Below are positions 2,988 through 19,961 of a DNA stretch of 20,349 nucleotides, in pieces. Under the pieces are notes generated by a model. That model saw only the letters and a list, made by a program, of their open reading frames with translations. It ran no database searches and had not been told where the DNA came from. The translations under genes and the position numbers were made by a program. The stretch comes from a virus. Each line of letters begins with the position of its first letter. Positions within the stretch are counted from its first letter, which is position 1. The DNA lies in IMG/VR virus record IMGVR_UViG_3300028654_000075, positions 1 to 20,349 of that record; one strand, 5' to 3'.

Positions 2988-3544
2988 TGAAAAAACTTCT
3001 TCTCCTTTTCGGTTTTCTTTTAATTGCTTCACCGGCCAATGCTGGGTTGAAAGCTGTTGTTGGAAGTTCAGGTGGAGGAGGCTCCGGCACCGTCTCAACC
3101 GGCACGGCGGGGCAGGCGGCGTATTACACCGGCGCGACAACCACAGGCAGTACACCATATATCACTATCGGCACATCGACCGCTCCTGTCACCCTGACAA
3201 GCCCGGTTTTTATCGGCGCTCCATCAATTACAGACACCAACGTTTTGCTTCAGGCGACATCAAGCGTGGCTGGCTATAACCAATTCATCATCCAGAACAC
3301 GAACAGCGGGGCAACGGCCTCATCGAACTTCGTGGTGAATAACAACAACGGCACGGCGACGACCTACTACGGCGAGTTTGGGATGAACAGCAGTGGGTTT
3401 ACGGGTTCGGGGTCATTCAACAAGGCTGGCGCGGTTTATCTAGATTCGCAAAGCGGTGATTTGGTTCTCGGTACGTTGACGAGCAACCCTAATGCCACAT
3501 TATCTGGCAAGTATTTGATTTTCTCTGGATTTTATTTTATATAA
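2987..3544 (+). CDS. Exported-looking tail-fibre fragment with signal peptide, apparently 3'-truncated
   Basis: 185 residues. Residues 1-19 (MKKLLLLFGFLLIASPANA) form a textbook signal peptide: two lysines, a Leu-rich core and an AxA cleavage site before Gly20. After that come a Gly/Ser linker and fibre-like sequence: GTAGQAAYYTGATTTGSTPYI at about 36-57, then an Asn-rich part and YLDSQSGDLVLGTLTSNPNA near the end. In fibre relatives that last motif normally continues into a further domain. Here it stops within about 14 residues (YLIFSGFYFI), where base composition falls back to AT-rich, so I infer truncation at a recombination joint. The gene body is strongly GC-rich (one 60-base stretch near 3061 is about 72% G+C). 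The start is coupled to the previous stop (TAATG), with GAGG about 11 nt upstream. A signal peptide on a fibre-like phage protein is odd; whether it is exported is unknown. Confidence 0.7.
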   Translation: MKKLLLLFGFLLIASPANAGLKAVVGSSGGGGSGTVSTGTAGQAAYYTGATTTGSTPYITIGTSTAPVTLTSPVFIGAPSITDTNVLLQATSSVAGYNQFIIQNTNSGATASSNFVVNNNNGTATTYYGEFGMNSSGFTGSGSFNKAGAVYLDSQSGDLVLGTLTSNPNATLSGKYLIFSGFYFI

Positions 3545-3571
3545 TAAAAAGATTTTTTAAAGGATATAACA

Positions 3572-4072
3572 ATGTCAACAACCACAGTAACACCAAGTTT
3601 ATTATCTTCAACAGTAAGTGCTCCAACAGGAGCAGGACAAGTTCTGACATCTACGAGTACAACAGCAGCCACATGGAAATCACCTGCGCCTACTATTCAG
3701 ACATATGTTTCAGGATCAGGAACATACACAGTTCCTGCAGGAACAACTTATCTTAAAATTCGTATGGTAGGCGGCAAAGGCGGCAATTCACCTTTCGGTG
3801 GCGGAGGCGTAGGAGGCCCAGGTAATGCAGCAGCACCAAATGCTGCTATTGCCAATACAGGTTCTGGTGGTGGTGGCGGTGGCGGACCTGGCGCATTTGC
3901 AAACTCAGTTGTTGGAGTCGGCGGAGGATCAGGAGGATATATCGAAGCAGTTATCACATCCCCTGCAGGAACATATTCTTATGCGGTAGGAACAGCAGGA
4001 ACAGCAGGCGCAAATGGATACGCTGGAAGTGCCGGCGCTGCGGGTGTTATCATCATCGAAGCATATCCATAG
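3572..4072 (+). CDS. Glycine-rich phage adhesin / tail-fibre tip protein
   Basis: 166 residues. The start has an AAAGGA Shine-Dalgarno about 9 nt upstream, in a leader nearly identical to that of the gene at 1779. Residues 1-35 are a short fibre-type N-terminus (MSTTTVTPSLL, GAGQVLTS, W). Residues about 41-65 (YVSGSGTYTVPAGTTYLKIRM) and the C-terminal VIIIEAYP bracket a glycine-rich core with a run of seven Gly (about 99-105) and further GGSGG and GTAGTAGA motifs. This layout is that of the glycine-rich domain widespread in phage tail proteins and is reminiscent of the polyglycine-helix sandwich of gp38-type adhesins, which sit on fibre tips and contact the receptor. The adhesin role is inferred from family and context; no receptor can be named. 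Confidence 0.75.
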   Translation: MSTTTVTPSLLSSTVSAPTGAGQVLTSTSTTAATWKSPAPTIQTYVSGSGTYTVPAGTTYLKIRMVGGKGGNSPFGGGGVGGPGNAAAPNAAIANTGSGGGGGGGPGAFANSVVGVGGGSGGYIEAVITSPAGTYSYAVGTAGTAGANGYAGSAGAAGVIIIEAYP

Positions 4073-4195
4073 CTTATACACTTGATAGTCTAAAAATATC
4101 GTATTATGCATCAATCATCACATTGATTAAATACTGTATAACATTCAAATCTAACAGATTTAACCTCATTTCTGTAGATTTAGGAGAGACTGTAC
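4073..4195 (+). other. Intergenic leader of the second fibre group, with small inverted repeats
   Basis: This is the longest gap (123 bp) within the fibre array. No gene is visible. It holds two small inverted repeats: ATCAAT/ATTGAT at 4110-4127 (6-nt loop) and AAATCT/AGATTT at 4147-4161 (3-nt loop). The second right arm is repeated at about 4176-4181, just before the Shine-Dalgarno AGGAGA. Neither stem is followed by a T run, so they do not look like terminators. A promoter for the downstream group (4196-7120) could lie here, but I see no convincing consensus. Confidence 0.3.
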
Positions 4196-5719
4196 ATGTC
4201 AGTGAATTTCAACGATCAACTCGATTTAATTTATACCACGTCTGGCATTTTAAAAGATGCCGATACTGGCGGTTTTGTAGTCCCAAATGGATCAAGCACA
4301 CCCACATCTACATCAGCAACTTTAATTGATGGCGGAATTACATACTCAGCAGTCACATCAGGAAATTCAGGAAATAGTATTACGATTACATATACAACCG
4401 GCGCAACAGTTGGTTTAGAAAAAGCATCTGTAATCGGAAATGCTATCACTGTTAAAATTGCATCTGGCACATCTACTGGAAATCAAATAAAAACAGCAAT
4501 ACTTGCCTCGACTCCCGCATTAGCACTAGTAACAATATCTGGAACAGATGCTACGACACGAACAGCAATGTCAGCAAATTATCTTTCGGGCGGTGGACAA
4601 CAACCGCTACCCTCAGGCAACAACGGCCTCATTCGTTATAACACAACTACAAATCGTATAGAAGCTGTTATGAATGGAACATATGTTAATTGGCTTTTAG
4701 CAACCGATGTAATTAGTTCTTATTTACCTTTATCCGGTGGAACATTATCCGGAGTATTAAGTTTACCTTTAGGTTCGCTAGCAACACCAGCATTGAATAT
4801 TGGTGGTTCATCAATCGGTATATTCAGTCCAGCAGCAAATATTTTATCACTTTCAACAAGTAGCACAGAAGCACTACGCATCGATGCATCAGGAAATGTT
4901 GGTATAGGAATTATTCCGACACATAAACTAGATGTTAACGGAACATTTAACGTTTCAGGATTATCAAGTTTAGCAGCAACAACCACAACAACATTATCTG
5001 CTTCAGTATCAGCAACAGTACCAACACCAGCACAATTTGATAATAGCACAAATGTAGCAACAAGTGCGTTCGTTCAGCGAGCATTAGGAAATTTTAATAG
5101 TCGCGTGCAATACACAAGTACCACTGCAACTATACCGCCGTCACAAGTCGGGGCAATGATTGTACTAGGAGGCGGCGGCAATACAATCACATTACCTTTG
5201 GCAGCATCATGCCCAGCAGGTTCAGTATGCTATTTTCATATACAAGGTAATATCAATACAATTTTACGCCAAGGTTCTGACACAATTTATTATGATGCTG
5301 TAGGCACATTAACATCATATCAGGTATCAGGATTTACTGAAGTTATGTTTGTTAACTCTGATGGCACATCAAGTTGGGAAATAATGGGTGGAGCAGAAGC
5401 AAGCACATCAGCTAAAGCATGGGTATCTTTCACGCCATCTACAGGAGCAATTCGTAGTTCATATAATATTTCGAGCGTTACAAGAAATTCTGTCGGAGAT
5501 TACACAATAGCATTTAATACTCCGATGCGAGCAGCAACTTATGCCATAGTCGGAACATGTACGGATGATAAAGCCGGAACAACAAATTCTTTATGTGTAT
5601 ATCCAGCGGCAAATGGCGGAACAGATCCTTCTACAACTTCTTTCAGAGTAGTAACAACAACAAACGGATCACCAGTAGATGTTGCATTAGAAAATTCTAT
5701 AGTTGTGTTCGGAGTATAA
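4196..5719 (+). CDS. Multidomain tail fibre protein with paralogous N-terminal anchor
   Basis: 507 residues; start supported by AGGAGA about 8 nt upstream. Residues 1-32 (MSVNFNDQLD, TSGIL, GGFVV, NG) match the start of the collar protein at 6107 and are probably a shared tail-attachment segment. Residues about 34-135 form a cassette absent from that paralogue (ITYSAVTSGNSGNSITITY, then GNAITVKIA), a pattern also seen in other phage structural proteins. Residues 138-165 (SGNNGLIRYNT, EAVMNGTYV) return to the shared sequence. Residues 176-255 carry YLPLSGGTLSG and an ILSLSTSSTEALRIDASGN segment, followed by DNSTNVATSAFVQRALG at 282-298, a very common fibre motif. The end (AKAWVSFTPSTGAIRSSYNI from 407, then GDYTIAF) is a common fibre tip domain. 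The next ATG lies one base after the stop. Confidence 0.85.
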   Translation: MSVNFNDQLDLIYTTSGILKDADTGGFVVPNGSSTPTSTSATLIDGGITYSAVTSGNSGNSITITYTTGATVGLEKASVIGNAITVKIASGTSTGNQIKTAILASTPALALVTISGTDATTRTAMSANYLSGGGQQPLPSGNNGLIRYNTTTNRIEAVMNGTYVNWLLATDVISSYLPLSGGTLSGVLSLPLGSLATPALNIGGSSIGIFSPAANILSLSTSSTEALRIDASGNVGIGIIPTHKLDVNGTFNVSGLSSLAATTTTTLSASVSATVPTPAQFDNSTNVATSAFVQRALGNFNSRVQYTSTTATIPPSQVGAMIVLGGGGNTITLPLAASCPAGSVCYFHIQGNINTILRQGSDTIYYDAVGTLTSYQVSGFTEVMFVNSDGTSSWEIMGGAEASTSAKAWVSFTPSTGAIRSSYNISSVTRNSVGDYTIAFNTPMRAATYAIVGTCTDDKAGTTNSLCVYPAANGGTDPSTTSFRVVTTTNGSPVDVALENSIVVFGV

Positions 5720-7167: not shown

Positions 7168-7455
7168 TTATTCTTTTAGCAAAGCACTAAACTTTTTTTC
7201 GACATTAACAATTAATTTCTCGAAGTTTATTTCTACCATAACATTTTCAATTTCTTCACCGGATTCAACCAATTTCGAAACATAAACATCAAAATCTTTT
7301 TTATTTTTGATGATCTTCTCGTTGCCATTTGTCAAAAGAACCTTGAAATTTTTGGTAAAATCAAAAGGTATTTCAGACGGAACAGACAACTGACCAAGAA
7401 TAGACTTCCATTGCTTTTTGATCTTGTAACGGTTCTTTATAGATACATTACTCAT
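7168..7455 (-). CDS. Hypothetical small phage protein
   Basis: 95 residues, not recognised. It is basic at the N-terminus (KNRYKIKKQWKS) and mixed-charge later, with an alternating pattern (VMVEINFEKLIVNVEKKFSA) at the C-terminus. No transmembrane segment, signal peptide or cysteine motif is visible. There is no strong Shine-Dalgarno before the ATG; an AT-rich GATAAATA lies just upstream and could be a late-type -10, but this is weak. It is the last gene of a minus-strand group of three small proteins and ends at the shared bidirectional terminator. The tight packing and normal codon use support it as a real gene. Confidence 0.65.
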   Translation of the reverse strand: MSNVSIKNRYKIKKQWKSILGQLSVPSEIPFDFTKNFKVLLTNGNEKIIKNKKDFDVYVSKLVESGEEIENVMVEINFEKLIVNVEKKFSALLKE

Positions 7456-7486
7456 AAAGATATTTATCTCAAGTTACAAAATAAAA

Positions 7487-8047
7487 TTAAACTTCGGTCT
7501 TCTTAACCTTCTTAGATTTTGTCTTCTTAGGCTTTTCAAAGCAAGCATCTGGCATCATATCATGTGCCAACTTTTCTTTCTTCGTTGCTTCTTCGCGGAG
7601 CATTTCAGCTTCGATTAGAAGATTCTGTGCAACCGCTACTTTTTCTTCTAAGGTCTTAGCAGTAACAAGCGGAGCCTTAACTTCTGTTGATGTACTATCC
7701 ATCATGCCTAGCAATTCAGCGAGAGCAATAGGATGACCAGGATGTGGTACCATAACAACGTCAGTAACAGCAACCTTGCGAAGCTTACCAGCAGTATGCA
7801 ACCAATTCAAAATTGATCCTGCATTACCTTGTGAAAGTGTCTTACGATTTAGGAAAGTTCCTAGATCATGTTCCTTCTGACATTCATCAGTTTCAAGTAA
7901 GCGAATAATTTCATCTTGAACCAAATCAGGCAGTGTATGTGTTTCAACAACCAATGAGCTTTTTGGATCTTCTGGAAGTTGCATGAAAACTACGAGAACC
8001 TTTGTATCACGGTCCTTTAGCTTTCCAATATGTTTAATTAATTTCAT
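7487..8047 (-). CDS. Conserved phage protein of unknown function, lysine-rich C-terminus
   Basis: 186 residues. The start MKLIKHIGKLKDRDTKVLVV is preceded by AGGAGA 5 nt upstream. Residues 1-110 look like a compact globular domain (LPEDPKSSLVVETHTLPDLV, DLGTFLNRKTLS, VVMVPHPGHPIALAELLGMM). About 125-160 is Ala/Glu/Lys-rich and probably helical, and the last ~15 residues are almost all lysine (KKTKSKKVKKTEV). To my memory, proteins starting like this, with an Ala/Lys-rich tail, occur in other large T4-like phages without assigned function; this needs a search. A basic tail could bind nucleic acid or other acidic partners (inference). A strong hairpin precedes the ribosome binding site, so expression may depend on read-through from the upstream gene. 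Confidence 0.75.
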   Translation of the reverse strand: MKLIKHIGKLKDRDTKVLVVFMQLPEDPKSSLVVETHTLPDLVQDEIIRLLETDECQKEHDLGTFLNRKTLSQGNAGSILNWLHTAGKLRKVAVTDVVMVPHPGHPIALAELLGMMDSTSTEVKAPLVTAKTLEEKVAVAQNLLIEAEMLREEATKKEKLAHDMMPDACFEKPKKTKSKKVKKTEV

Positions 8048-8068
8048 TTTTATCTCCTAGTTAAATTA

Positions 8069-8100
8069 AAAGATATGTGGGTAAACACCCACATATCTTT
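8069..8100 (-). terminator. Perfect 14-bp hairpin between two co-directional genes, terminator or attenuator
   Basis: AAAGATATGTGGGT (8069-8082) pairs perfectly with 8087-8100 across a 4-nt loop. On the minus strand the stem is followed by TTTTAATTT, so it resembles a rho-independent terminator for the gene ending at 8111. The next minus-strand gene begins only 21 nt beyond the stem, and its Shine-Dalgarno takes up part of that, leaving no room for a promoter. Confidence 0.75.
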
Positions 8101-8110
8101 ATTTCAGTTC

Positions 8111-8401
8111 TTACTTCTTTGACTTCTTATGCTTCTTTGTTTCTGTTACTTGGGCAGCAGGCGCTTCTGCATTAGCAGCAGCTTGACTTTCCTTCTGTGC
8201 TTCAGCCTGAACATAGCTTACAAACGCGAATAGACGATTGTATACAGCCATAACTTCATTTAGTTCTTCTGTTTTAAATGTTCCGCGATCAATAGCTACC
8301 TTAAGAAGAATTGTTCCGTTAGTAATATCATTTACCTGCAATTGTACAGGTTGTGGAGCAGTTGTTTCAGGGGTAGTAGGTTGTGTTGTAGTATCAGTCA
8401 T
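8111..8401 (-). CDS. Hypothetical small phage protein with charged, low-complexity ends
   Basis: 96 residues with a strong AAAGGAG Shine-Dalgarno 7-8 nt before the ATG. The N-terminal 20 residues are Thr/Pro/Gln-rich (MTDTTTQPTTPETTAPQP) and look disordered. The core (VQLQVNDITNGTILLKVAID, RGTFKTEELNEVMAVYNRLF, AFVSYVQ) looks helical, and the tail is Ala-rich then lysine-rich (KKHKKSKK). The core pattern of hydrophobic start, RGxFxxEEL and Asn-Arg-hydrophobic is one I associate with short unannotated proteins of large T4-like phages, but I can name no function. It is the first gene behind its own promoter and a structured leader, and the lysine-rich end resembles that of the next gene, suggesting a shared setting or partner. 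Confidence 0.7.
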   Translation of the reverse strand: MTDTTTQPTTPETTAPQPVQLQVNDITNGTILLKVAIDRGTFKTEELNEVMAVYNRLFAFVSYVQAEAQKESQAAANAEAPAAQVTETKKHKKSKK

Positions 8402-8410
8402 TTATTTTCT

Positions 8411-8448
8411 CCTTTGCAAAGGTTATTAAATTCTTTTAATTAAAGAAT
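8411..8448 (-). promoter_or_regulatory. Structured 5' leader with two palindromes, one covering the ribosome binding site
   Basis: The perfect 12-bp palindrome CCTTTGCAAAGG (8411-8422) overlaps the Shine-Dalgarno AAAGGAG of the gene at 8401. A second inverted repeat, ATTCTTT/AAAGAAT (8430-8448, 5-nt loop), lies just upstream, close to the predicted transcription start. In the RNA, the first could hide the ribosome binding site and the second could form a 5'-terminal hairpin. The pairing is seen in the sequence; the regulatory role is inferred. Confidence 0.45.
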
Positions 8449-8453
8449 GATTA

Positions 8454-8483
8454 ACGATACATCAAATTGTATATAAATGTCAA
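8454..8483 (-). promoter_or_regulatory. Sigma70-like promoter for the gene at 8401
   Basis: On the minus strand a perfect -35 TTGACA (8478-8483) is followed, after 18 bp, by TATCGT (8454-8459), a 4/6 match to the -10 consensus. It lies in the gap between the HNH gene and the gene starting at 8401, and would give a leader of about 45 nt. The -10 is weaker than in the other three promoters called here. Confidence 0.5.
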
Positions 8484-8500
8484 GAAAAAATGAGGTTAGA

Positions 8501-9085
8501 TTATTTAATATGATCTATGCTATATTTTTCTTCATGTGATGATCCGATACGAACCAAATCTTCTGGCCAATTCAAGAAAAGTTTCCACGACTCATGTGAA
8601 ATATTAATCGGGAATTTCTTTCGTTCAGCAACAAGTTGATAATATGTTGGTTTACGCGGTTTCTTAATAGGTTGAATAGAAATGTCATCGCCACGTCCAT
8701 GATTGCACTTGGGACACGCCATCACCAGATTTTCCCAAGACTTCTTACCGCCAAAACTCCTAGGTACGACATGGTCAAGAGTTAGGTCTTTTGGTGGAAA
8801 ATGTTTATTACAATATTGACACTTACCGCAGTCTCGCCAATATAAATTTTGTTTAGTGAAACGAATACGTGTAGCAGCCTCATGATATTTTTTACACATA
8901 ATAATAGCCGGAACAGCCATCGCAAGCATTTGTGAGTGAACTACCCAATCTTCATATAATTCTACGACAGTAACTTTGTCTTGATAGAGTAACTTAACAG
9001 CCTCCTGCCAACTGACAACAGACAACGGAATAATACTTAAAGGGTTGCCATCGGAATTCAGGATGAGAACATCACCACTACTCAT
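8501..9085 (-). CDS. HNH endonuclease
   Basis: 194 residues; ATGA overlap (4 nt) with the upstream phosphatase, and AGGAG before the ATG. Residues 89-129 form a zinc-bound HNH core: C89-x2-C92, LTLDH with His105, a second-shell SFGGKKSWENLV with Asn119, then C124-x2-C127 and His129. This is the arrangement of the common bacterial and phage HNH nucleases, which cut DNA with a single metal ion. The ~80 residues before it (DVLILNSDGNPLSIIPLSVV, WQEAVKLLY) are typical of the stand-alone chromosomal-type HNH family rather than of homing endonucleases, and no NUMOD-type DNA-binding repeats are present. Its job in the phage is not evident; host DNA cutting, packaging or recombination are possible. 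Confidence 0.85.
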   Translation of the reverse strand: MSSGDVLILNSDGNPLSIIPLSVVSWQEAVKLLYQDKVTVVELYEDWVVHSQMLAMAVPAIIMCKKYHEAATRIRFTKQNLYWRDCGKCQYCNKHFPPKDLTLDHVVPRSFGGKKSWENLVMACPKCNHGRGDDISIQPIKKPRKPTYYQLVAERKKFPINISHESWKLFLNWPEDLVRIGSSHEEKYSIDHIK

Positions 9086-11030: not shown

Positions 11031-12254
11031 TTACTCGTAGTATGCATACGCCCCAAATGGAGGTTTTACATCTTTGTTCCAGGGATTTGAAATTATCCAG
11101 GTTGTTTCTATATAATCTGGATCTATCGAGTTCAACGAGCCACATTCAAGATCAGTAAAAACAATTAATGCATCAGCGTCAACTTCTTTTTCTTTCATGA
11201 AGTCCCAGTTTGCCGCAATGTGTGTGCCGCCTCCGCCTTCTGGAACCCATTCTTCTAACTCATCTTGATTATCCTGTGTGAATATAGTATATGCACCGCA
11301 GCGCGTATCAAACGACCAAAGCGTAACTTGAAACGATTGATACTGCGACATGATACCTTTAATTTCAGACAAGAAATCTTTGACCTGCTTATCAGAGATA
11401 GAGCCACTAACGTCGATTGACACGGCTACTTTAATTGTTTCCTCGGGAATTCTACCAGGAAGAATATATTCGTCAAAATCTGATTTACGCGACGGACGAA
11501 TAAATGACAAATCAGATTTTACTTGGCTTTGAATTGTATTAGCAAGCAAATCGCGCCAGTTAAGTTTTGGTTCCAAAAGTTCACGCACCATTCGCGCAAT
11601 TTCTCCGGGAATACTACCGGCATTGCGACTATTCTGGCCCTTTACAGCCTCGATCAAAGCCTCGCGCATTGTATCACGAACTTCTTTGGCTTCTGCAGGA
11701 GAAAGCGTCGGAACAGTAACTTTATCGCCAGAACCATCACCGTTACCATTGCCATTTTCAGAAACGTAAATGTGACTATCAAGTGAATTACGTTTTTTAG
11801 CTTTTTCTTGTAGCAACTTGTCATAAATTTGTTCGGCGGTCATGTCTTTATATTTTTCGTCGAGCAGAAGACCGTTATCAGAACCCGGAGCGCCAAGTTT
11901 AATTTCTGGAATTGGACCAGGAACTTCGCCTACGCCATCGCGCTTTAGCATCCAGTTAATAGCATAGTCAGTTGCCATATTCCAATAATCGTGATTGCGA
12001 CCATTCAAGCGCGTGAAATGTTCAAAAGCGCAATGAAGAATTTCATGACAGATAACAAATTGAATATTCTCGCCGCTTAATGCCATCGTAAAATCACGAT
12101 TGAAAAAAAGATGTTTACCATCGGTAGCCATCGTTTTATTCCATGGTTCGTTAGTTTCGATGATTTTTAAGCGTGTTGCGATAACACCCCAAAATGGTTT
12201 CTGCAATAAGAGCGCAGTTCTTGCAGCACGAATTTTGAGTTCAACTGGATCCAT
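11031..12254 (-). CDS. Metallopeptidase-like plus vWA-like domain protein (DUF2201 family)
   Basis: 407 residues; AGGAGATT before the ATG. The N-terminal half carries the zinc-peptidase motif HEILH (70-74) inside FVICHEILHCAFEHF, followed by WNMATDYAINWML (91-103), the usual arrangement of the putative metallopeptidase domain of the DUF2201 family. A Gly/Asn/Asp-rich linker lies at about 165-180. The C-terminal half is a von Willebrand A-like domain with a MIDAS set: D281-x-S283-x-S285 in SIDVSGSIS, Thr344 in GGGGTH, and Asp368 in FTDLE. In bacteria, relatives usually pair with a MoxR-type AAA ATPase and are thought to act in assembly or metal insertion of other complexes. No such ATPase is visible in this window. 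It is the first gene of a three-gene operon. Domain assignment is confident; the cellular role is unknown. Confidence 0.88.
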   Translation of the reverse strand: MDPVELKIRAARTALLLQKPFWGVIATRLKIIETNEPWNKTMATDGKHLFFNRDFTMALSGENIQFVICHEILHCAFEHFTRLNGRNHDYWNMATDYAINWMLKRDGVGEVPGPIPEIKLGAPGSDNGLLLDEKYKDMTAEQIYDKLLQEKAKKRNSLDSHIYVSENGNGNGDGSGDKVTVPTLSPAEAKEVRDTMREALIEAVKGQNSRNAGSIPGEIARMVRELLEPKLNWRDLLANTIQSQVKSDLSFIRPSRKSDFDEYILPGRIPEETIKVAVSIDVSGSISDKQVKDFLSEIKGIMSQYQSFQVTLWSFDTRCGAYTIFTQDNQDELEEWVPEGGGGTHIAANWDFMKEKEVDADALIVFTDLECGSLNSIDPDYIETTWIISNPWNKDVKPPFGAYAYYE

Positions 12255-13036: not shown

Positions 13037-14511
13037 TCTTTTCTATTTTTCGTTTTATTCATCAATCGTTCTAATGCGGGCGTCATATCTCTACTATTTG
13101 TTGGAGTGGACGATGTCGAAGTAACGTGTTCCGTGACACTACTTTCATCAACATTATAAACTGTATGACTGCCATATGAAGTGTTATCAAAAATTGGAAT
13201 ATCATTTGATTGCGAAGTTTCAATAAGATGTTGTGCGTCAGCTTTAGTAGTGGCCATGGAGAAATCGGCCGGATCAGTAATTCGCAATGTATTGGAATCG
13301 AATCCTAATGCTATATGTTTCCCAGTGCCGGCACTATTTCGCGTCTTAATAAAGTGAAAACCAATTTCTCCACGTTCTCTAGATGCTGGCGTGTTTGAAA
13401 TATTGATCAAAAGGTCACATGCAAAAATTTTAGAAATTCCACCACTTATATTTGCTGCTGTTGGATCTAACTCTCCATATCCGGATCTATTAACTTGTAC
13501 TGCTGAGATTGCCAGCAATCCCAATTCCATTGCAAGTCCACGAAGTTCTTCAGCAACTAATTTATCTTTGGCAAATAGATTTGTTGGATCGATTCTTTTG
13601 CTATTGGCTCCCATCAAGTCCATATAATCTACAACGATTGCATCGGGCTTTTTATTATGCTGAATTTGATATTCTTTCAAATATGCACGTAAATCATTTG
13701 TTGTGGTTGATGGTTTAATATATTTTACTTGAATTGCACCGAGATGTTTTTCTTTTTGTTTGATAATAAGTTCAACTTTATCAATTTGTCTAAAGATACT
13801 CGCATTCGGAATATCAGTTATCATCGAGTCTAATCTTTTTGAAGTTAATTCCTCACTAAGCTCTAGTGTAAAATAAACAACATTGTAATTTTGCATTGCG
13901 AGATTACAAGTTAGATTTTGTAATGCCACTGATTTGCCGCCCCCCGTAACTGCTGAAAACAGGATCAATTCACCCAAACCCATACGATAAATTATTTGAT
14001 CGACGCATTTCCATCCGGAAGAAATATTTCCATTTTGTTCTAACAGTTTTTCCAGACGTTTTCTAGGATCTTCGAAGTAATTCGTACCCAATTCTCGATT
14101 AAGAGATACTAACACTGCATCTTTGATGATGCCTTCGACATCACCATAATAACCGCTCTCCAACATATCAGCACTGGCTAAAATAGCAATCTCAATAGCC
14201 TTATGTCGGCAAAATAATTCTATTTGATCAAGAAACCATTGCTTAGACGAATCAGAAACTTCAACGAGTGATATATCAATTCCTGTTTGAGCTTTAATAA
14301 GTTCTACAGGTGGCAAACCTTTATAGGTTGTAGAATGATCTAATATAAGCTTCACCACAGATTGCAGCGAACCGTCAAAATATTGCGTCTGAACAATATT
14401 TTGACACTGAATATATGCTTCACTATCACTCAACATATATGAAACTAATACTCGCTGAAAATCAACACTGTAGTTTATTTTTTCTTTTTTTGTTTTGCTG
14501 TAATTATTCAT
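13033..14511 (-). CDS. Replicative DNA helicase, DnaB / T4 gp41 type
   Basis: 492 residues, similar in size to T4 gp41 (475). The RecA-like core has Walker A AVTGGGKS (187-194), Walker B IVVDYMD (292-298, with Asp295), the sensor SAVQVNRSGYGE (336-347, Gln339) and FHFIKTRNSAGTGKH (386-399), which should supply the arginine finger. Residues 1-140 form the helical N-terminal domain that contacts the primase in this family. The last ~70 residues are Ser/Thr-rich and probably flexible. It forms a hexamer on the lagging-strand template, unwinds the fork and works with the primase encoded two genes upstream. The ATG overlaps the end of the homing endonuclease gene by 8 nt, and the 3' end meets the LRR-like gene with a 4-bp overlap. 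Confidence 0.92.
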   Translation of the reverse strand: MNNYSKTKKEKINYSVDFQRVLVSYMLSDSEAYIQCQNIVQTQYFDGSLQSVVKLILDHSTTYKGLPPVELIKAQTGIDISLVEVSDSSKQWFLDQIELFCRHKAIEIAILASADMLESGYYGDVEGIIKDAVLVSLNRELGTNYFEDPRKRLEKLLEQNGNISSGWKCVDQIIYRMGLGELILFSAVTGGGKSVALQNLTCNLAMQNYNVVYFTLELSEELTSKRLDSMITDIPNASIFRQIDKVELIIKQKEKHLGAIQVKYIKPSTTTNDLRAYLKEYQIQHNKKPDAIVVDYMDLMGANSKRIDPTNLFAKDKLVAEELRGLAMELGLLAISAVQVNRSGYGELDPTAANISGGISKIFACDLLINISNTPASRERGEIGFHFIKTRNSAGTGKHIALGFDSNTLRITDPADFSMATTKADAQHLIETSQSNDIPIFDNTSYGSHTVYNVDESSVTEHVTSTSSTPTNSRDMTPALERLMNKTKNRKD

Positions 14512-15709
14512 TATTTTTGCCCTTTGATTTATTGTTGCGTTTTTTATTAATCTTTTTATTTCGACGATTCTGTTTTTTAAGTAATTTCTTCTTCTTTTTT
14601 AATAGTTTATGTTTTTTATCTAGCTCTGCTTCCCACATGAATATCACTGTATAACCGTGTTTTCTTAGTTTTCTAATTCTAGCAAAAGTTTCTTTATGTA
14701 ATTGGCCGAAGCTTTTATAATTGCGACCGTTTATATCATTTTTATCATATTTTCTAAGATCACCGTGCCAGTATCCACCAAGAAATTCAAATACTATTTT
14801 CTTTCTGGGTTTACATCCATCTACTATAATATATGTATAATCATCGAAATTAATTTTATATTGTCGAAATTTTTTAGGAATACCAATTTCATTGAGCCAG
14901 TTTGTTTCCTTTTTAGAAATTGAATTATTTGCGCAATACGGACAACCCCTGCCAAAAATATGTTTGGCAGGGACTTGCAAAAATTGGTCGTGTTTAGGAC
15001 ATTTTATGATAACTTTTTCTCGACTAGATTTGTAAACTACTAAACTATAGTTATAAAAATCGCCATGTACTTCTTTTGCATCTTTAATAAATTCCGATGT
15101 TGTCTTTAAACTCGCGCATTTTTTACAACCCTGTCCACACAAATGTTTGGCCGCCGATTGTAACCATGGTCCGTGGTTAAGACATTTAATATAAACCTTG
15201 GACTTTATGTTTTTATAGACGACTAAACTATAATCATATTTTAATCCGTGCTTTTTTTGAGCTTTCTTTATAAACCAATCCGTTGTTTTTTGCTGTAACT
15301 TTGAACTGTTATCCCAGCCGCACTTAATGCAACCTTTACCTTGTAGATGATTTCCTACGGATTGCAGGAATTCTTCGTTATGAACTGGACAGATTATACG
15401 AACATTTTCACTTCGACTAATGTACTCCACTAAACTGTAATCATAAAAATTATTATGAACTTTATTGGCTTCTTTTATGAATTGTTCTGTGGTTTTTCTT
15501 CGAATAAATCCAGCATTATTATGACCGCAGGTTGGACATCCCTGTCCTTGAATGTGATTTCCTGGAGATTGCATAAATTCATTGTGCAATGGACATTTGA
15601 TGCAAACTTTGGTTAAACTATTTACATAATTTACTAACGTATAATCATAAAAATCATTATGTACTACATTTGCTTTTTTAATAAAAAGCTCTATGAAAGA
15701 TTTAGCCAT
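14504..15709 (-). CDS. Homing endonuclease with four zinc-ribbon-like repeats and a Vsr-like nuclease domain
   Basis: 401 residues. Four repeats of about 59 residues (4-62, 73-131, 141-199, 203-260) share F-I-K-x-A-x-x-x-H, YDYSLVxY, IKCPxH and GxGCPxC. Each carries Cys/His pairs for zinc and is a probable DNA-binding unit (DUF723-type). Residues about 266-365 form a nuclease domain of the Vsr / PD-(D/E)xK kind, with FEFLGGYWHGD (Glu308, His315) and ARIRKLRKHGYTVIFMWEAE. The tail is almost entirely Lys/Arg/Asn. Proteins with this layout are free-standing homing endonucleases that cut a target site and spread by repair. It lies exactly between primase and helicase, overlapping each by 8 nt (ATGGCTAA and ATGAATAA), so the operon stays translationally coupled. 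Confidence 0.85.
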   Translation of the reverse strand: MAKSFIELFIKKANVVHNDFYDYTLVNYVNSLTKVCIKCPLHNEFMQSPGNHIQGQGCPTCGHNNAGFIRRKTTEQFIKEANKVHNNFYDYSLVEYISRSENVRIICPVHNEEFLQSVGNHLQGKGCIKCGWDNSSKLQQKTTDWFIKKAQKKHGLKYDYSLVVYKNIKSKVYIKCLNHGPWLQSAAKHLCGQGCKKCASLKTTSEFIKDAKEVHGDFYNYSLVVYKSSREKVIIKCPKHDQFLQVPAKHIFGRGCPYCANNSISKKETNWLNEIGIPKKFRQYKINFDDYTYIIVDGCKPRKKIVFEFLGGYWHGDLRKYDKNDINGRNYKSFGQLHKETFARIRKLRKHGYTVIFMWEAELDKKHKLLKKKKKLLKKQNRRNKKINKKRNNKSKGKNNE

Positions 15710-16691
15710 TGAACCAACCTTTCATCTTCAATTTAATCTTTAATTCCGAATCTAGCGTAGACGCTAAAATTTGTTGGAGTGCTGGTAGACGACCATATTT
15801 TGTAACGGCATCTGCAACATCCTTTATTCCATCGTCCCAATTAGGAAATGAAACAGAATATCCTAATTTCATAGCTTGTTCAACCAAGGTTTTCCCACTC
15901 GCATCTCTGTCTGGAACAATAATAATTTGTTTATCATCCGAGACAGTTTTCAACGTGGAAATTTGACCGTCTGTGAGATATTGCTTCATAACAGCCACGC
16001 CAGAAATACTGATCGCATCAAATAAACCTTCGCATATAATAACAAATTTTCTATTCGGAAGATATAATTTATCTTGACCAAACAAATAAGAATTGTTTAT
16101 AACTTGTGCCAAATACTTAGGTTGTGTATTATCAATCGCCCTCGCTGAATATCCATTCAACCAACCGTTATCGGACAAGAACGGCACGATAACACGATTA
16201 CTCATCTTTGGCGACCAATAGTATTCATGCCATTTTATCAAATTGGGATTTCTTTCTTGTATATAGCTAAGAACTTTTAGAAAATCTTCTGGCGGATCGT
16301 TAACCCATTCTGAAAATAATTTAGAACCGTCTGGTAAAATTATTTTTTTATTTTCAGACGGTATAATATTATTACTTATCGCGCCGCTATTTTTTAATTT
16401 CAAACAATGAAAATTTATTTTTTTAATTTCATCGGGAGTTGCACCAAGATATGAAAGAAGTTTTTTAGCATCTTTCGATAATACTCTGCCCGCTCCCCAA
16501 CTGGCCTTAAAACTGCAGTTGAAACACGAGTAGGAAATAGAGTCACTAGAAACTTTATAACCGCCTCTCATGCGTTTATCCGGTTTGTGTCCGGCATGAT
16601 GACAGCAAACGGCGTTCACTGTTGTCCAACCAGCAGGCGTGTGTTTACGTTTCGCCGGCATACGATTTATGAATTGGGAAATAATATCCAT
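15702..16691 (-). CDS. DNA primase, DnaG / T4 gp61 type
   Basis: 329 residues (T4 gp61 has 342). The N-terminal zinc-binding domain has C29-C30-H31-H32 and C56-x2-C59 after PAGWTTVNAVCCHHAG. The TOPRIM catalytic part has CEGLFDAI (220-227, catalytic Glu221), IIIVPDRDASG (256-266, acidic pair Asp261/Asp263) and DDGIKDVADA (286-295). The enzyme makes RNA primers for lagging-strand synthesis in complex with the hexameric helicase. No clear Shine-Dalgarno precedes the ATG; a later ATG at residue 11 has none either, and the longer start is kept because it fills the frame from the intergenic gap. Its last codons overlap the start of the homing endonuclease gene. The gene just upstream is structural, so a separate promoter is expected. 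Confidence 0.9.
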   Translation of the reverse strand: MDIISQFINRMPAKRKHTPAGWTTVNAVCCHHAGHKPDKRMRGGYKVSSDSISYSCFNCSFKASWGAGRVLSKDAKKLLSYLGATPDEIKKINFHCLKLKNSGAISNNIIPSENKKIILPDGSKLFSEWVNDPPEDFLKVLSYIQERNPNLIKWHEYYWSPKMSNRVIVPFLSDNGWLNGYSARAIDNTQPKYLAQVINNSYLFGQDKLYLPNRKFVIICEGLFDAISISGVAVMKQYLTDGQISTLKTVSDDKQIIIVPDRDASGKTLVEQAMKLGYSVSFPNWDDGIKDVADAVTKYGRLPALQQILASTLDSELKIKLKMKGWFNG

Positions 16692-19013: not shown

Positions 19014-19961
19014 ATGAACTACGATAACATATACGATCATCTTATTACAAGAGCATTTGCGAGGCAACTTTGGTGTCCATTCCAGGGATATAAAGAGAAG
19101 CATCATATTTTACCCGAATGCTTATTCCCAGAATTTAAAGATTTGAAGAAACACCCAGAAAATTGTGCGATATTAACTCCAGAAGAACATTATCTCGCGC
19201 ACCAATTGCTTGTAAAAATGAGCCGATATAAAAATCACGCAAATTATAAGGGATTAGTTTATGGCGCACATAAAATGTGCTCAAATTCTACGACGCAAAA
19301 AAGAAATAACAAACTTTATGGATGGATTAAGAGAAAATTTTCTATAGTTAATACCGGCTGGAAGCACACAGAAGAAGCTCTTGATGCCATGTCGATTAAT
19401 AGAAAGATAGAAATAGAAAATAGTAAAAAATTATGCCCACACTGTAGAAAAGTTGTTGGAACAGGAAATTTTAATAGATGGCATGGCGATAATTGTGAGA
19501 AAAATAGATCATGGGAGGCACAATTTGGCAAAGAAAAAGCACAGCTAAAGAAGAAAAATATCTCAGATACAAATACCGGAGAAAATAATCCAAATTGTGA
19601 TAAAACATTATATATTTGGTATCATATAGATGGAACTATAGTAGAATGTACTAGTTATGAACTTGAGAATAGATATAAATTAGGATATATGGCATCAAGA
19701 AGACTTTTGTCCGGTGATATTAAACGGCACAAAGGTTGGGCAATAACCCTCGAATTATTAAAATATAGATATTGTTCTGGAAAAAACAATTCGAATTATG
19801 ATAACACAATATATCATTGGATTAATAAAGATGGCAGAGAAGAATATCTAACGCGCCATAATTTGTGTGAACAATATAAATTATCGCTAGACTGCATAGG
19901 AAAGATTATAAGAAATGAACAAAAATATCATAAGGGATGGACAGTTAGAATCGTTCATTGA
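19014..19961 (+). CDS. HNH homing endonuclease with zinc finger and two C-terminal helix-turn-helix repeats
   Basis: 315 residues; GGAG 9 nt before the ATG. The N-terminal HNH core is KEKHHILPECLF (27-38, with His30/His31), Asn50 in PENCAILTPEEHYLAHQLL (48-66), and His59/His63. Residues 141-161 form a C-x2-C-x12-H-x3-C zinc finger (CPHCRKVVGTGNFNRWHGDN plus Cys161). Two similar repeats follow, 198-243 (LYIWYHIDGTIVE ... HKGWAI) and 266-311 (IYHWINKDGREEY ... HKGWTV), of the helix-turn-helix type used for DNA recognition. This is the architecture of T4 Mob-like free-standing homing endonucleases. All motifs are intact, so it is probably active. Its 3' end overlaps the convergent coiled-coil gene by 17 bp. 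A degraded relative lies at 18114-18386. Confidence 0.88.
   Translation: MNYDNIYDHLITRAFARQLWCPFQGYKEKHHILPECLFPEFKDLKKHPENCAILTPEEHYLAHQLLVKMSRYKNHANYKGLVYGAHKMCSNSTTQKRNNKLYGWIKRKFSIVNTGWKHTEEALDAMSINRKIEIENSKKLCPHCRKVVGTGNFNRWHGDNCEKNRSWEAQFGKEKAQLKKKNISDTNTGENNPNCDKTLYIWYHIDGTIVECTSYELENRYKLGYMASRRLLSGDIKRHKGWAITLELLKYRYCSGKNNSNYDNTIYHWINKDGREEYLTRHNLCEQYKLSLDCIGKIIRNEQKYHKGWTVRIVH

Follow-up and report, generated by a model that had tools for sequence, protein, structure and literature searches.

In 2025, the EDxHD/Vsr homing endonucleases were described as having a large outgroup that had gone unrecognised, in which CapR/DUF4379/DUF723-like repeats are combined with an EDxHD/Vsr-like domain (PMC12350094). 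Repeats of the treble-clef class have been described as modules with which phage homing endonucleases bind DNA (PMC10448857), and I-Bth0305I is intron-encoded (PMC3943268). Furthermore, of the 12 free-standing homing endonucleases of phage T4, 5 overlap the gene that precedes them, examples being mobE, segC, segF, mobA, and mobC, and translational coupling or ribosome scanning was proposed for them; homing endonucleases that split nrdA, gene 60, and gene 43 are described in the same review (PMC2988022).

The DNA analysed here (the window) comprises a whole IMG/VR virus record of 20,349 bases and is a piece of a larger genome. The phage that it comes from is large and unclassified, with RaK2, 121Q, Atu_ph07, and PA5oct as jumbo-phage relatives, and megablast of the whole window against phages gave no match. 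Three genes are arranged in tandem on the minus strand, with an endonuclease-like gene between a primase and a DnaB-like helicase (Table 1); both of the flanking genes are full length and neither is split. The intervening gene is probably a free-standing treble-clef/EDxHD-Vsr homing endonuclease; it would have reached the primase-helicase junction through cleavage and repair and would be expressed by re-initiation. It resembles the recently described endonucleases in its layout of treble-clef-like repeats (three to five in that group) and, after them, an EDxHD/Vsr-like domain of about 100 aa, whereas those endonucleases are intron-encoded and that of the window is free-standing between two genes (PMC12350094). 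A search of the window for group I or II introns or other Rfam RNAs gave none, and no intron or intein was recognisable around the endonuclease gene. With the T4 set it shares a free-standing gene between conserved genes, often those of replication or nucleotide functions, and a start that overlaps the upstream stop, but the T4 enzymes are of the GIY-YIG or HNH type and occupy other sites, none being noted at a primase-helicase junction in the available part of that source (PMC2988022). The locus would add this junction to the sites held by free-standing homing endonucleases, as a known kind of element in a new location, and would show that a family lately described in introns also has a free-standing member (PMC12350094).

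Table 1. Features of the primase-endonuclease-helicase locus, in window coordinates
Feature	Position	Strand	Basis
T4 gp61-type DNA primase, 329 aa	15702..16691	-	PHROG 47 (E 2.6e-33), Toprim_2; zinc-binding N terminus, Toprim domain; apparently intact
AAAGG, weak Shine-Dalgarno-like site, 8 nt before endonuclease start	15718..15722	-	inferred
Overlap ATGGCTAA, 8 nt	15702..15709	-	primase stop within endonuclease start
EDxHD/Vsr-like probable free-standing homing endonuclease, 401 aa	14504..15709	-	DUF4379 (E 1.6e-11) and DUF723 (E 6e-10) in Pfam; PHROGs 4605, 681 (endonuclease), and 559 (HNH endonuclease); C-terminal fold matches
Four treble-clef zinc-binding repeats	14924..15709	-	CxxH...CxxC from residues 39/58, 107/127, 176/195, and 237/256
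Nuclease domain, residues 263-366	14612..14923	-	E of KKETNWL (266-272), VDG, FEFLGGYWHGD (307-317), WE of MWEAEL (358-363); alignment A4
Lysine-rich low-complexity C-terminal tail, residues 367-401	14507..14611	-	sequence
AAAGGG, weak Shine-Dalgarno-like site before helicase start, within endonuclease 3' end	14520..14525	-	inferred
Overlap ATGAATAA, 8 nt	14504..14511	-	endonuclease stop within helicase start
T4 gp41-type DnaB-like replicative helicase, 492 aa	13033..14511	-	DnaB_C (E 8.8e-15), PHROG 19 (E 4e-63); apparently intact

The encoded protein and its relatives

The DUF4379 and DUF723 matches of the 401-aa protein exceed the Pfam cut-off, and with its four CxxH/CxxC repeats it has tandem zinc-binding repeats as in the outgroup (PMC12350094). 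These treble-clef repeats are presumed to be the DNA-reading part, and the PHROG matches of the protein were to endonucleases or to unknown families. In the nuclease domain, the candidate active-site residues, the E of KKETNWL, the D of VDG, the E of FEF, and the H of WHG, align with phage relatives. The whole-protein model was poor in the nuclease part and its fold search was uninformative; the nuclease domain was therefore modelled by itself, giving an AlphaFold model of medium confidence (pLDDT 74, pTM 0.63). The best two Foldseek matches of this model among 350,542 chains were I-Bth0305I (3r3p) and Vsr (1vsr), with a probability of 0.97 and an E value of ~0.03, and the top matches in VIA-align were Vsr (Z 7.1) and I-Bth0305I (Z 6.9). 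The Z values alone are middling, and the weight of the fold evidence comes from both Vsr-superfamily structures ranking at the top. In addition, a profile built from five phage relatives placed Vsr among its top five matches in the PDB, weakly (E 1.5). The description of the protein as Vsr-like in the first-pass annotation is supported by these matches, and the nuclease domain is assigned, with moderate confidence, to the Vsr/EDxHD fold; this predicted fold is shared with I-Bth0305I and with E. coli Vsr (1vsr, 1cw0), a repair enzyme, although the sequence similarity to them is very weak.

A scan of viral contigs with the nuclease domain alone gave no matches. The closest nuclease-domain relative found (37% identity) is encoded in the nrdA locus of a 636-kb uncultured phage (LR756504; L203:2145-6439), where nrdA is split by an apparent split intein, the endonuclease occupies positions 3416-4339, and what looks like another interruption, ~0.3-0.4 kb long, comes after the intein C-part. 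In another locus (L139:6645-10372), a gp41-type helicase is split by an apparent split intein at the Walker A region, and a 601-aa Vsr-like endonuclease ORF (7231-9036) lies between the helicase halves and overlaps the C-half by 17 nt. The split-intein calls in both loci were made from intein-like ends read by eye, and we take the two arrangements to be akin to the published "fractured genes."

The window shares with these two loci a Vsr-like/EDxHD endonuclease in the replication genes of a large phage, and with L139 also an overlapping seam, but in those loci the intein presumably rejoins a host gene that is split, whereas the primase and helicase of the window are whole. A comparable case is the Jedunavirus DNA polymerase gene of the phages JustaPhage and KpV79, again a replication gene with overlapping seams of -4 and -11; in the Klebsiella phage JustaPhage the endonuclease within it also has treble-clef repeats of the DUF723 type, but its C-terminal nuclease domain is GIY-YIG-like and it splits one gene, whereas the endonuclease gene of the window sits between two.

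Occupancy of the primase-helicase junction

Relatives were gathered from viral contigs and phage records by means of the primase and helicase; counting the window, both genes are present in 127 distinct loci. The two genes were adjacent in 57 of these loci and at least 100 nt apart in the other 70, nearly all of which hold one or more extra genes in the gap. The intervening genes that were scanned included those for Clp protease, ThyX, carbamoyltransferase, dCMP deaminase, DNA methyltransferase, oxygenases, and others, and in large phages unrelated metabolic genes are often inserted at this junction. An all-against-all comparison that covered 124 ORFs from 69 junction intervals revealed no relative of the window endonuclease. 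The gene was found at the junction in the window alone (1/127) and was missing there in all 126 other distinct loci, each of them distant, which agrees with its earlier description as an insertion between primase and helicase. An insertion is no more than probable from comparison with distant relatives, because the best matches of the helicase and primase reached 49% and about 47% identity, respectively, the latter over a partial match; searches of viral contigs and phage records for close relatives of the primase, the helicase, and the nuclease domain gave none near enough for a true empty allele, and a search of GTDB genomes with the helicase gave nothing.

Since many relatives carry other genes at the junction, position alone is no indicator of homing. 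Seamless overlaps alone are likewise no signature of it, given that paired overlapping seams also accompany unrelated cargo in several loci (L008, L043, L055, and L070). Both observations would suit an ordinary cargo gene that serves the phage, for example in cleaving host or competitor-phage DNA or in repair, and that merely occupies a permissive junction. This is nevertheless unlikely, as relatives of the nuclease domain and of the repeats are found in a split-intein-like gene and in a split polymerase, and the same architecture has been placed among homing endonucleases (PMC12350094). The position of the nrdA endonuclease between apparent split-intein halves is a known homing setting, and the assignment as a homing endonuclease is strengthened by the occurrence of endonucleases of the same fold class in split-intein-like genes (the L139 helicase and LR756504 nrdA). 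The lysine-rich low-complexity tail could instead be the mark of a decayed or inactive relic, kept only since its loss would disturb the primase-helicase junction; with a full-length open frame, four complete zinc repeats, and the nuclease-domain residues shared in alignment A4 all present, such decay is very improbable.

The paired 8-nt overlaps and their origin

The 8-nt overlaps that had been reported at both junctions are present (Table 1). At the upstream seam, the primase ends in GGT TGG TTC AAT GGC TAA and the endonuclease start, ATG GCT AAA, is nested inside; at the downstream seam, the endonuclease ends in AAT AAT GAA TAA and the helicase start, ATG AAT AAT, is nested inside. The primase C terminus, KGWFNG, is similar to those of 121Q and Vibrio 2.275.O (KWM/KWFI). 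The form ATGxxTAA follows automatically from an 8-nt overlap of an ATG start with a TAA stop, and the observation thus reduces to two overlaps of 8 nt. Genes in compact phage operons ordinarily overlap by about this much. Among tandem pairs from the related loci, in which genes were called mechanically, -8 ranked third in frequency among overlap lengths (29 of 813 pairs, or 3.6%, and 29 of 339 overlapping pairs). Two independent -8 seams are expected in ~0.13% of cases, and two overlaps of equal length, whatever that length, in ~3%; the pairing is real and mildly unusual, as judged after the fact. Identities between the flanks of the two seams were at chance level (10/30 upstream and 9/30 downstream), a search for a duplicated segment at both seams found none, and beyond the 8-nt class there was no sign that one seam copied the other.

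Direct -8 overlaps of primase and helicase occurred in 18 of the 57 adjacent junctions (15 of them ATGNNTAA, several ATGAATAA, and one ATGGCTAA). In the primase-helicase tree, all 18 fell within a single clade of 19 rows that has strong support, contains one departure, and lies far from the window. The window itself sits on a long branch near the base, with uncertain placement; as evidence for an ancestral overlap, these junctions were rejected on the strength of the tree. An 8-nt ATG overlap is kept in one clade; in another, the overlap is 17 nt long and the helicase begins at a TTG. Among the eleven named jumbo phages that share the synteny of the window, ten have spacers of +1 to +22 nt (PA5oct, +1; Atu_ph07, +6, measured from an upstream start and not the annotated one; XbC2 and CBB, +7; Vibrio 2.275.O, +9; Hallingskeid and Munch, +11; XaC1, +12; RaK2, +14; and 121Q, +22), and one, Phosso, has an overlap of -11. 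The junction in L194, a 607-kb phage contig, is TAATG (-1).

Two comparisons of empty and filled sites show that inserted genes can gain overlaps where the parent had none. L051 and L055 have 80-87% DNA identity around the junction, and L051 has a +15 spacer where L055 has a 117-aa cupin-type gene with -4/-11 seams. In the Jedunavirus polymerase, KpV79 carries a different endonuclease at the same site and with the same seams as JustaPhage, and the polymerase genes of ZCEC13 and 1611E-K2-1 are uninterrupted. At the same Jedunavirus polymerase position, two different endonucleases (L199:981-3974 and L202:1001-3934) have identical -4/-11 seams and a common 3' end, as if the endonuclease front had been exchanged.

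The first-pass annotation held that the element replaced or duplicated an original overlap, for which a direct ATGxxTAA junction in endonuclease-free relatives would speak and against which a long or unrelated spacer would. Such direct junctions do exist, but only in the distant clade, and the named jumbo relatives have short, unrelated spacers, which in part counts against this origin. The first reading was partly supported, in its Vsr-like and insertion parts and not in that of an inherited or duplicated overlap. An ancestor with a direct ATGxxTAA overlap, duplicated or kept by an ATG-to-ATG insertion, would be consistent with the frequency of -8 among direct junctions, several of them exactly ATGAATAA, and with the outcome of excising 1198 bp from ATG to ATG, which gives a direct ATGAATAA overlap with a single amino acid change, G to E at the very end of the primase. 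The restored junction, however, follows automatically from the equal overlaps, and with the seam flanks alike only at chance level, every direct -8 junction in a clade distant from the window, and spacers or other overlaps in the jumbo relatives and L194, we regard this ancestry as rather unlikely. It is somewhat less likely still that the endonuclease is shaped to swap one stop/start overlap for two equal ones without polarity, such that its removal restores ATGAATAA and the overlap itself is the homing site. Equal overlaps need not copy an older one and could reflect later selection to maintain translation of the helicase.

Proposed entry and expression

As a homing endonuclease, the protein would cleave the endonuclease-free allele in or near the 3' end of the primase gene or the 5' end of the helicase gene, and recombination-dependent repair would then copy the endonuclease gene into the break. 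The gene would be read from the replication-gene transcript, with ribosomes that end at the primase stop re-initiating at the endonuclease start, and translation of the helicase would be re-initiated in turn at the endonuclease stop. The earlier suggestions of coupled translation, of an insertion without polarity, and of expression timed to fork activity are plausible for such an arrangement. Promoters and terminators near the seams were no more frequent than in shuffled sequences.

Other genes in the window include a NUMOD3-bearing homing-endonuclease-like gene (19014-19961, plus strand) and an HNH endonuclease gene (8501-9085, minus strand). A further gene (11031-12254, minus strand) encodes a metallopeptidase/VWA (DUF2201) protein, for which the PHROG 1314 label "HNH endonuclease" looks wrong in view of the Pfam match.
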